A stretch of DNA of 64,000 nucleotides, from the NCBI GenBank assembly GCA_016936455.1, contig JAFGXV010000003.1, positions 62,001-126,000 on the forward strand, read 5' to 3'. The position numbers and the translations under genes were made by a program. The notes below the pieces were generated by a model that was not told the DNA's origin, searched no databases, and was given only the letters and a program-made list of their open reading frames with translations. This stretch comes from Desulfuromonadaceae bacterium. GTDB taxonomy: Bacteria > Desulfobacterota > Desulfuromonadia > Desulfuromonadales > Desulfuromonadaceae. Position 1 is the stretch's first letter; every line of letters begins with the position of its first letter. This document shows, piece by piece, positions 16,730 to 20,917 of the stretch.

Positions 16730-17011
16730 TCAGGATCGCTCTGTCACTTCAATGAGATGATACCCAAACTGGGTTTTTACCGGCCCAAGGACCACCCCGA
16801 CGTTACCGCTAAACACCACTTCATCGAATTCCTTGACCATCTGTCCGGGATAAAACACCCCCAGATCGCCCCCCTTGCGCCCAGAGGGGCACTGGGAATG
16901 TTTTTTGGCGCATTTGGCGAAATCGATCTTCCCCTCTTCAATCCGGCTTTTCAGCTCGCGGCATTGTTCTTCACTCGCCACCAGGATGTGACGAGCCCTT
17001 GCACTGGCCAT
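16730..17011 (-). CDS. ppiC: Parvulin-type peptidyl-prolyl isomerase
   Basis: 93-residue stand-alone parvulin that catalyses cis/trans isomerisation of peptidyl-proline bonds. Motifs: ARHILVASEEQC at the start, SGRKGGDLG in the middle and QFGYHLIEV at the end, as in PpiC. No signal peptide, so it should be cytoplasmic. GGAGAGG upstream of ATG 17011. It begins 23 bases after the CsgG-like lipoprotein gene and may be the last gene of that operon. Confidence 0.93.
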   Translation of the reverse strand: MASARARHILVASEEQCRELKSRIEEGKIDFAKCAKKHSQCPSGRKGGDLGVFYPGQMVKEFDEVVFSGNVGVVLGPVKTQFGYHLIEVTERS

Positions 17012-17034: not shown

Positions 17035-17790
17035 TTACTTCTTACGATCGATGTCGCTGACACATTCCTGAACCAGACGTTGAACAAGGCTGTCCAGCGT
17101 TACCATCTTGCTCTCGCTTCCGGAAACACCCAGGAAAGAGGTTCCCTGCTTGCCCACTTCCATCTTCTGCTCGTAGTAACCGGTGCTGACCTGCTCCGTG
17201 GTTGACGCATCGACCACCTTGTAACGCATGCCCACAATCCAGATTCCGGCACTATCACCCATATGAGTGGATGAAACAGCGACGTTACCGACATAACCGG
17301 TCTTACCACCAACCAGAGCACCGAAAATCTTCCCGGCAGCATTGCCGTCAAACCCCGACGAAGCTTCGGCAACCTTTTCTGCTTTCAACACGTCAAAGGT
17401 GACAAACCAGCGTGTCGACTTGAACTTGCCGCGCTTGAATTTCTGCAATGCGGTGGGGTCGCCCATGCTGACGGCCAGTTTGATTTCGTTGAGCATGGGA
17501 CCGATATCCGTACGCTCCAGGACGCCAAAATTGGCATTGCCCAACTCCAGTTCGCCGAAGTCGGCAATATTATTATCGCTAATTTTCTCCCGGAAGGTGG
17601 CATTGTTGCTCTTGATTTGGCCGGGCAAAACAATCAATGCCGGTCCGCGTTTGCAGCTATTGGCGTATTGGATCGGTTGATACATGGCCTCATCCGCCAC
17701 CTGGTTGGCCTTTTGCGAAGACTGCATAACCGGGACACACGCCCCTAAAAAAAGGACCAGCAATAGAGAACCCCATTGACGTAAATTCAT
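17035..17790 (-). CDS. CsgG-like lipoprotein
   Basis: 251 residues. The signal peptide ends in a lipobox (LFLGAC, Cys about residue 18), so the mature protein should be a lipoprotein. FGVLERTDIGPMLNEI (about 93-108) matches the region of CsgG-family proteins where a conserved Arg precedes a short helix. The rest alternates beta strands with Gly-rich loops and a VVDASTTEQVSTG segment like the CsgG 'Vda.TGe' motif. CsgG itself forms an outer membrane pore for curli subunits, but this relative lacks other curli partners nearby. Downstream of two signal-peptide genes with 27-base spacing. Exact role unknown. Confidence 0.75.
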   Translation of the reverse strand: MNLRQWGSLLLVLFLGACVPVMQSSQKANQVADEAMYQPIQYANSCKRGPALIVLPGQIKSNNATFREKISDNNIADFGELELGNANFGVLERTDIGPMLNEIKLAVSMGDPTALQKFKRGKFKSTRWFVTFDVLKAEKVAEASSGFDGNAAGKIFGALVGGKTGYVGNVAVSSTHMGDSAGIWIVGMRYKVVDASTTEQVSTGYYEQKMEVGKQGTSFLGVSGSESKMVTLDSLVQRLVQECVSDIDRKK

Positions 17791-17817
17791 TCTTTCTTCT
17801 CCTCTCTTGTCACACCA

Positions 17818-19161
17818 TTAAAAATCACGAACCTGACTTGTTGCCGATGTTGTCTCCTTCCGTACCGTGCTGTCCGCCAGCAGGTTTAAATCACGGAGTT
17901 TTTCACGGGTAGAATCATCTTTGATCAACGCCTGTAAACGCTCGGGAGTTGCCGCATACAACGAGGCGGGCAACTGTTTTTCAAATAAGGCTTCCGGCGC
18001 GACATCCTGCGCGGGTGGGGTGAAGCTCAAGACGACGCTATCCCCTTTCGCCGACACCAGAGAAAACAGTTCCGCGTCCATTTTCCGGTTTAATGGAACA
18101 ACGAGGGAGGTGTTGACCGCCGACATGAAATTCTGCCGGCCACCGCTGAAATCAATTTCAAACAGGCTCTCCCCCTTGGCGTTAAACTCGCGCAGGTCCA
18201 CATTCAGAACATGCCGCAGACCGATGAGTTCTTTTTTCAACAGGGTCGCCGTATCGTAATCCGGCAAACCCGTCACCAGCAGACGGAAAATCTTCGAAGG
18301 CTCCAACAAATAATCGGCAAAAAAGTCCTGACTGAATTCTTCACCGATCAAGCGCCCGATATCGCCCAGGGCCGCATCTTCATCGTTCCAGCTTTTTCCT
18401 TGGGGAATCTGATTATTGAAATAGATCTCTTCTTTTGAACGCAAATCCAAACACTTGACCGACCAACTGGTGAGAACATGCTTGACAATCGTCAGCCCCG
18501 ATGCTTTCAGGTGCACAGACAGCGGCTTAAAACGCGCTTCACCCAAAATGGCAAAATCCGCGCTGTCCGTTCCCTGTTGCCCCTGGGACCAGACGCGGTA
18601 ACCGAATGCCTTGAAATGCTCCTTGAGTACATTTTCAGCGATAAATGAACGCTCGGCCTGGGTGGACGAGGCACGGTCCGCATCCCGCACCTTGACGTTC
18701 ACTTCGATTCGCGGATTGCCATGTTCACGGATCAGAGCCACCCGCGAGGTGCGGCTCAAATCATTGAGGGAAGAGCGGATATCGGAGAGATAGACCTCGG
18801 CCTTGAGCAGCAGGTGCATAAAGCCGTCTTCACCGCGAAAAGGGGAACTCTCTTTGATGACGCGCTTGATCAGGCCCTTGGAATGGGTCAACACCCGGTC
18901 CTGGACCAGAGCGTAGTTTTCCACCAGCGTCGCGCTGTCCACCAGAACCCCCACAGCTTTTTCTACCACCTGCCGACGCGCATCTTCGCGCAAATCATCG
19001 ATGAGCAGCCCACGGTCGCGCTGGTAGATTTCCGCGTCGGGATCAGCGAGGCCTTCGGCGGAAACCACCAGAGTCCGTGCCGGTTCGGCGACCGCCAGCC
19101 CTCCAAGCAGGATAGAAAAACCCATAAAAAAAACGGCCCACCAGCACCTTAAAGCGGTCAT
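17818..19161 (-). CDS. Secreted protein with FlgT-N-like domain
   Basis: 447 residues with a signal peptide (about 1-25, ending GLAVAEP). Residues 30-130 follow the FlgT N-terminal/LPP20 pattern: VSAEGLAD, DDLREDARRQVVEKAVGVLVDS, then a conserved SKGLIKRVIKESS. That domain occurs in outer membrane proteins of the Vibrio flagellar H ring and in other envelope proteins. The remainder is alpha/beta without a family I can name. ATG 19161 has AAGGATAGGG upstream and starts only 4 bases after the preceding stop. No flagellar genes lie in the window, so a flagellar role is not implied. Confidence 0.7.
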   Translation of the reverse strand: MTALRCWWAVFFMGFSILLGGLAVAEPARTLVVSAEGLADPDAEIYQRDRGLLIDDLREDARRQVVEKAVGVLVDSATLVENYALVQDRVLTHSKGLIKRVIKESSPFRGEDGFMHLLLKAEVYLSDIRSSLNDLSRTSRVALIREHGNPRIEVNVKVRDADRASSTQAERSFIAENVLKEHFKAFGYRVWSQGQQGTDSADFAILGEARFKPLSVHLKASGLTIVKHVLTSWSVKCLDLRSKEEIYFNNQIPQGKSWNDEDAALGDIGRLIGEEFSQDFFADYLLEPSKIFRLLVTGLPDYDTATLLKKELIGLRHVLNVDLREFNAKGESLFEIDFSGGRQNFMSAVNTSLVVPLNRKMDAELFSLVSAKGDSVVLSFTPPAQDVAPEALFEKQLPASLYAATPERLQALIKDDSTREKLRDLNLLADSTVRKETTSATSQVRDF

Positions 19162-19165
19162 CGCC

Positions 19166-19855
19166 CTATCCTTCCTGCCGGCAAAAAGCATGATACAGCT
19201 CAATGATCGCCTGTTCGCCTTGCACCTCGACAAGTTTTAACAGCGCCTCCTCGACGCGACTGTCAGAAAAAGCGGTTTCAGCCACCCGCACATGAGACAG
19301 GGTCCGGCCCGTATCATCCAACAGGGTCAGGACCAAAGTGACACTTACTTCGTCTATCCCCACCACGGGATTAAGTTGCCGTTGGGTGATCACCTGGCCT
19401 TTGAGCATGAACCGGGCCCGCAGGCGCTGCGCCGCACTCGCTGCAGCATCCATGTCATTGGCGAGAAACGCCTGGGCTTCGGCATCGGCAATGCGGCCTT
19501 CAATCTCCTTCTGAGTCAGGGTTTTCAGACCCAACTGACTCAGCTTGCTGTTGATCACACTGGCCACGGCGCCGTTTTCACGCCCGGATCTGAGAAAAAA
19601 GGTGCCATTGTGATCCTCATACAGAACAAACGCAATCGTCTGATTTTTCAAGCGTGCGGAGCAAGGCGCTGAGCGTAAATCTGCCAGACGTTGTCGGCGC
19701 GCCTCCACAACGTCCTGTTCTTCGCGCTGCTGGCGCTGCTCATAGTCGGAAAACGAGAAAGCCTGGACCGCAGCAGGCGTAAAAACGCACAACAACAGCA
19801 TCAGTAAAACTGTCGTTAGGCCCCCTATTTTTTTTAAACCTGCTCTCTTCAGCAT
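19166..19855 (-). CDS. Secreted FlgO/CsgG-like envelope protein
   Basis: 229 residues from ATG 19855, chosen because it opens a good signal peptide (MLKRAGLKKIGGLTTVLLML, cleavage after VQA). The open frame reaches 19909; GGAG lies rather far (14 bases) from ATG 19855. A polar helix rich in Gln/Arg/Glu (about 35-55) precedes an alpha/beta domain in which LKTLTQKEIEGRI and RARFMLKGQVITQ resemble the CsgG/FlgO nucleotide-free Rossmann-like fold. First of three tightly spaced envelope genes. Function unknown. Confidence 0.65.
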   Translation of the reverse strand: MLKRAGLKKIGGLTTVLLMLLLCVFTPAAVQAFSFSDYEQRQQREEQDVVEARRQRLADLRSAPCSARLKNQTIAFVLYEDHNGTFFLRSGRENGAVASVINSKLSQLGLKTLTQKEIEGRIADAEAQAFLANDMDAAASAAQRLRARFMLKGQVITQRQLNPVVGIDEVSVTLVLTLLDDTGRTLSHVRVAETAFSDSRVEEALLKLVEVQGEQAIIELYHAFCRQEG

Positions 19856-19912
19856 ATGAAAAAAACAGTCTCCTTTCTTGTTGCACGAGCCTCTCTTGCT
19901 TCGCCCCATACC

Positions 19913-20917
19913 TTAGTCGTTATCACCATTCAGCAGGTTGCCAAGACCACCGAGCAAAGAACCTTCCCCCTTGCTGCCACCCCGCTGCGGGGCAGCCTGC
20001 AGCATCCGACCGGCCAGGCGAGAAAATGGCAACGACTGCAGCCAGATCTTTCCCGGCCCCTGCAGACGGGCAAAAAAGAGACCTTCCCCACCAAACAGAG
20101 CGGTCTTGATACTGCCGGCCTGCTGGATATCGAACTGCACCTGCGGCTCGTAAGCGACAATACAGCCCGTATCCACATGCAGTTCCTCGCCGGCTCGCAA
20201 CTCGCGCTCAATGATGGTGCCCCCAGCATGGAGAAACGCCATGCCATCGCCTTCGAGCTTCTGCATAATAAAGCCTTCACCACCGAACAGACCGGTGAGA
20301 ATTTTTTTCTGCAGATGGATCCCCACGGAAACACCGCGTGCAGCGCACAAAAACGCATCTTTTTGGCAGATCAGAGTGCCGCCCTGGTGAGCCAGTGACA
20401 CAGGAATGATATTGCCCGGATACGGCGCGCCAAAGGCCACGCGGGCCTTGCCCTGACCGTGGTGGGTAAAGACCGTCATAAACAGGCTCTCTCCCGTCAC
20501 CAGCCGCTTGCCAGCACCGAGGAGCTTGCCCATGAGTCCACCGCTCTCCTGACGCGAGCCATCACCGAACACCGACTCCATGGCAATCGAACTTTCCTTA
20601 TACATCATGGCCCCGGCTTCTGCGATGGCGCTCTCTCCCGGGTCCAGTTCGATTTCGACAAACTGCATCTCCGTTCCATAGATGGTAAAATCAATTTCAT
20701 CACACTGGAGACGGCCGCCTCCTGGAGCTGGACTTGGTGGCGGTGCCAATACAGCGGAGGGCGGTGCCAGCTCGGCGATCTGGCCAACAGGCAACCAGTC
20801 AGGAAAGCCTTCGCGCCAGGCAAAACCACCGCTGTTCTGGCGCACCTGCTCCTGTGCCTCAGCCAGGCTGAAAGGACCTTGCTGTTGGCCGTTATAACTG
20901 AGAAACCACTGTGACAT
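19913..20917 (-). CDS. AIM24/TIGR00266 family protein with GYF-like domain
   Basis: 334 residues. Residues 1-55 form a GYF_2-type domain ([19 protein letters not shown], then [11 protein letters not shown]). From about 85 to 310 is an AIM24/TIGR00266 beta-helix with repeating [24 protein letters not shown] and [11 protein letters not shown] segments. A short Gly-rich tail follows. No signal peptide. AIM24 is a mitochondrial organisation factor in yeast; the bacterial family has no firm role. AAAGGAACAATT before ATG 20917 fixes the start. It lies between hrpB (74 bases) and the envelope genes (57 bases) on the same strand. Confidence 0.88.

Follow-up and report, generated by a model that had tools for sequence, protein, structure and literature searches.

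Three genes for exported proteins lie in tandem in a 64,000-nucleotide stretch of a Desulfuromonadaceae contig (the window), and the question they raise is what such a set of FlgT-like, CsgG-like and LpoB-like proteins does outside a flagellar or curli locus. The open reading frames were re-found on the minus strand at 19166..19855 (P0003, 229 aa), 17818..19161 (P0002, 447 aa) and 17035..17790 (P0001, 251 aa), with the gaps of 4 and 27 bases given in an earlier note on this DNA, and a ribosome-binding-like AGGA or GGAG was present ahead of each start codon. Signal peptides were predicted on all three proteins, as the note had said: that of P0001 was of the lipobox type (LGAC, at C18), and those of P0002 and P0003 were Sec-type without a lipobox. 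The two flanking genes it named were also present, both on the minus strand: an AIM24 and GYF_2 protein before the trio (19913..20917; Pfam AIM24, E 8e-75), possibly the first gene of the trio's transcript, and a 93-aa PpiC-type parvulin without a signal peptide after it, the final gene of the run (16730..17011; Pfam Rotamase, E 1e-21). No flagellar or curli family was detected in 18 scanned window neighbours (2.7 to 43.6 kb), in agreement with the note. When all five window proteins were scanned against Pfam and NCBIfam, the trio had no match above a curated cut-off, and single-sequence and profile searches of PDB sequences returned no credible relatives.

The AlphaFold model of P0001 (pLDDT 71) predicts a CsgG fold. 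The best 12 Foldseek matches were all CsgG (E from 5e-8), and Z scores against CsgG structures reached 15.0 over 180 residues, with values of 13-15 for both the pore and the pre-pore forms. Pfam CsgG (PF03783) did not match P0001 itself; with E values up to 0.5 admitted, 22 of 45 relatives matched it weakly (lowest E 0.0014), and hhalign against CsgG gave 88%. Residues 145-178, the counterpart of the first membrane hairpin of CsgG, were glycine-rich and mostly modelled with pLDDT <50. With the fold and the lipobox together, the description of 17035-17790 as a CsgG-like lipoprotein held.

P0002 is predicted to have the three-domain fold of FlgT (AlphaFold model, pLDDT 86). Residues 31-407 of the model were aligned with FlgT 3w1e at a Z score of 9.2 (rmsd 5.5, 231 residues aligned), a match of moderate strength, and the middle domain had a CsgG/TolB_N/PelC-type fold in the predicted structure. 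An hhalign comparison of P0002 with paralogs bearing FlgT_N gave a probability of 97. The FlgT_N family (PF16548) had 0 matches on P0002 at E up to 1, none was listed among 40 relatives, and its match was confined to distant paralogs. The earlier FlgT-N-like reading of 17818-19161 was thus borne out for the fold, but not as a family match above cut-off.

For P0003, the LpoB family (PF13036) was matched at E 0.67, below cut-off, and 29 of 38 relatives gave weak matches at E ≤0.5, the strongest at 8e-4; hhalign against an LpoB set gave a probability of 89. FlgO (PF17680) was absent from the Pfam matches of P0003 (E up to 1) and from the 25 families listed, of 33, for its relatives. A conserved AFSFS motif directly follows the predicted signal peptide, and no lipobox was found in P0003, the simple pattern flagging one of 54 relatives. 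By these family comparisons, P0003 is better read as an LpoB-like protein of the CsgG/TolB_N superfamily, predicted to be soluble in the periplasm, than as specifically FlgO-like, which amends the earlier FlgO/CsgG-like label of 19166-19855, since most relatives match LpoB weakly.

Of 277 genomes in the window's class, an identical set of 5, belonging to two genera, had P0001 relatives and P0002 orthologs, and the distribution is therefore patchy. Relatives of the trio were also found in Desulfobulbales, Desulfovibrionaceae, Hydrogenedentota and many Betaproteobacteria; none was found in the viral contigs searched. A scan of genome contigs with a P0001 profile yielded 178 relatives, 80 of them kept, and a six-frame profile search of kept and fetched relatives covered 85 loci, two duplicates among them; architectures were counted from the six-frame hits, the ORF calls being antisense in some GC-rich loci. 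By type, 27 loci were free, 42 had a kinase domain, 10 held the CsgG-like gene alone and 6 were partial. The gene order of the free type was mostly LpoB-like, FlgT-like, CsgG-like. Because the trio was adjacent in the window's order in about 25 distinct loci and in a related order in about 40, the cluster in the window is not a product of chance. Across the compared flanks, the trio was retained while the surrounding genes changed; the betaproteobacterial loci often lay downstream of rpoN-hpf-ptsN-hprK. The AIM24 and parvulin genes were kept beside the trio in one genome only (G001), that is, within the window's genus, so they were placed outside the conserved unit and rejected as components of the system. 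In the open literature searched, no published account of the trio or of a FlgT/CsgG-linked kinase was found.

Related gene pairs and additional neighbours were also observed. The window genome carried two more FlgT-like/CsgG pairs, on contigs C11 and C54 (L021, L022). The C54 pair and its counterpart in a sister genome (L023) adjoin a protein of 2265-2281 aa, and the sister-genome copy of this protein has ketoacyl synthase, acyltransferase and FabA domains. At three loci (L050, L059, L080), a TPR lipoprotein and an LPP20-type protein followed the trio.

In Betaproteobacteria, 38 fused ORFs joined a kinase to the FlgT-like part, in the order kinase, proline-rich linker, one hydrophobic segment and FlgT-like part. 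The VAIK, HRDxKPxN and DFG motifs were each intact in 37 of the 38, and the hydrophobic segment lay C-terminal to the kinase in 37 of 38. Pkinase was matched in kinase relatives with E down to 8e-55; the best NCBIfam model, PknB_PASTA_kin (1e-98, below its cut-off), covered the kinase and the adjoining region up to profile position 354 of 563, and no PASTA repeat family was reported in two kinase relatives scanned singly (E up to 0.1). Judged by sequence and predicted topology, these proteins are PknB-like Ser/Thr kinases that span the membrane once, with the FlgT-like part as their putative periplasmic end. In the tree, kinase-fused and free FlgT-like domains fell on opposite sides of one branch (SH-aLRT 99). 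A cyclase-FHA gene was located close downstream, within 2.5 kb, in 17 of the 29 kinase loci with room for it; this adjacency may stem from common ancestry, which would count against a signalling link.

Some loci departed from the common layout. On a Myxococcota-labelled contig (L108:1206-3614), the CsgG-like gene came first, followed by the kinase-FlgT-like fusion and then the LpoB-like gene; the kinase was more divergent, and its long branch took a basal position among the kinase-side sequences of the tree. In two Rhodocyclaceae (L066:8381-9889 and L094:2812-4317), a caspase-domain (Peptidase_C14) protein occupied the LpoB-like slot ahead of the CsgG-like gene and also matched the LpoB-like profile. 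At L063:10787-12655, a gene for a CHASE2-adenylate/guanylate cyclase came no more than 20 bases after an orphan CsgG-like gene.

The lipid anchor differed between the two forms. A lipobox was absent from 37 of 45 kinase-linked CsgG-like copies and present in most free-type copies, as scored by a simple pattern that is crude, missing P0001's own lipobox and flagging a few ordinary-looking signal peptides. The second CsgG-like copies in kinase-type genomes, whether tandem (L055, L069, L087) or orphan, carried a lipobox; a cassette together with an orphan copy was present in at least six genomes, for example MAG.136 (L061, L101) and reactor_MAG15 (L051, L083). Such a split of the anchor between copies would fit an inter-membrane relay.

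Among the window-type genomes checked, Ser/Thr kinases were nearly absent: none in G018, G038 and G070, one weak match below cut-off in G000 and two genes in G001. No clear Ser/Thr kinase was found in the window's own organism, the assembly of which is 79% complete. A kinase is thus not the general partner of the trio, the idea that a Ser/Thr kinase works in trans in the window organism was unsupported, and we infer signalling in that organism from its relatives.

The conservation of the trio and the kinase fusion, together with the predicted folds, the predicted topology and the difference in lipid anchors, suggest that the trio is one periplasmic/outer-membrane module sensing or relaying the state of the envelope, a reading to which we assign a probability of about 0.5. 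The physical complex, the signal and the output would then be as follows. The CsgG-like lipoprotein would line the outer membrane on its inner face, the LpoB-like protein would be a soluble partner in the periplasm, and the FlgT-like protein would bind one or both of them. In Betaproteobacteria, the FlgT-like part is joined through one predicted transmembrane helix to the PknB-like Ser/Thr kinase; whether this part is bound or not would control dimerisation of the kinase and phosphorylation, which in part of that clade would be read by the cyclase-FHA protein encoded nearby. The FlgT-like protein of the window's lineage would instead be free in the periplasm. More tentatively, these may be two wirings of an undescribed envelope-sensing system, a free complex and a kinase-fused form with the anchor on a second CsgG-like copy, the FlgT-like domain of the fused form standing, in the same tentative reading, at the place of the PASTA repeats.

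Sensing or relay is favoured over secretion because most Betaproteobacteria combine a CsgG-like protein that has no recognisable lipid anchor with a FlgT-like kinase end. An outer-membrane pore or ring that exports a cargo, with P0001 as a CsgG-like pore and P0002 and P0003 as its collar, seems unlikely: the CsgG fold, close to both pore and pre-pore forms, the lipoprotein nature of P0001 in the window and the ring-building of both FlgT and CsgG agree with it, but no conserved cargo gene adjoined the trio in the compared flanks, the first-hairpin region is poorly modelled and rich in glycine, and a lipobox could not be recognised in most of the kinase-linked homologs, non-lipidated CsgG being the pre-pore according to the title of PDB entry 4uv2. 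The stand-alone outer-membrane assembly proposed in the earlier note survives as a stand-alone cassette, with no flagellar neighbours found in about 80 loci, whereas its pore, ring and cargo are unsupported.

Somewhat less likely again is a flagellar accessory ring coded apart from the flagellar genes, with P0002 as a divergent FlgT decorating the basal body. The FlgT fold extends across all three domains, and flagellar rod proteins were present in 24 of 24 free-type genomes checked, against a background of 74% in both the class and Hydrogenedentota, which keeps this alternative alive, although the counts are not independent, given shared ancestry, and the co-occurrence beyond expectation is suggestive only. 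However, 161 probe ORFs from the flagellar regions of three genomes revealed no flagellar gene in about 80 flanks; of the 14 members listed for the window's family, every one carried the rod family and only two the cassette, two kinase-type genomes had no rod-family matches, and a ring part is ill-suited to kinase fusion. The least probable of the three alternatives is a helper of cell-wall growth, in which LpoB-like P0003 acts on a peptidoglycan synthase and is placed at the outer membrane by P0001 and P0002. The similarity of P0003 to LpoB, the lytic transglycosylase genes MltB and MltA just upstream in 8 free-type loci, and the PknB type of the kinase, PASTA relatives of which read peptidoglycan, are consistent with this role, but P0003 is without the lipid anchor that LpoB has, no gene for a penicillin-binding protein was seen among the neighbourhood clusters, and the MltA/MltB link comes mainly from one clade (Desulfobulbales).

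The FlgT, CsgG and LpoB folds are known from motor, pore and synthase-activator components, respectively, and the trio was not filed under any of them because, for each, at least one defining feature is missing or unsettled. LpoB, the peptidoglycan synthase activator, weakly matches most P0003 relatives, but P0003 is a non-lipoprotein, and action on a penicillin-binding protein is not part of the likeness. If the envelope-sensing module is real, the three folds have a further role in envelope sensing, outside the motor, pore and synthase settings. The betaproteobacterial relatives share with PknB/PASTA Ser/Thr kinases a kinase domain, a single transmembrane segment and an extracytoplasmic sensor; they differ in having a predicted FlgT-like domain where the PASTA repeats would be, and the window's version has no kinase. 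To our knowledge, the input signals of Gram-negative transmembrane Ser/Thr kinases are mostly unknown, and the kinase fusion names a testable input domain for them.

P0001 has its predicted fold in common with CsgG, the curli pore lipoprotein (PDB 4uv2/4uv3), and is likewise a lipoprotein in the window's lineage, but the trio has no curli genes nearby, a glycine-rich, low-confidence stretch stands where the first hairpin would be, and the anchor is not recognisable in most CsgG-like proteins of one clade, the Betaproteobacteria. P0002 has the predicted three-domain fold in common with FlgT of the Vibrio H/T ring (PDB 3w1e, 8z5n), of which the H-ring consists of FlgO, FlgP and FlgT (PMC6375700), and its N-terminal domain is FlgT_N-like by way of paralogs; it differs in lying under Pfam detection, in having no flagellar neighbours and in being kinase-fused in relatives. 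The closest parallels in working are relays to kinases. In TagQR-PpkA-Fha, the threonine phosphorylation pathway of type VI secretion, outer-membrane and periplasmic proteins act on a transmembrane Thr kinase with an FHA reader, and TagR-PpkA-Fha is a precedent for a relay to a transmembrane kinase (PMC6082577), as is QseG-QseE for a lipoprotein-to-kinase relay (PMC6075780). Only the kinase and FHA families are shared with TagQR-PpkA-Fha, and no type VI secretion genes were noticed near the trio. By analogy, the relay proposed for the trio would work like TagQR-PpkA-Fha and QseG-QseE while being a member of neither.
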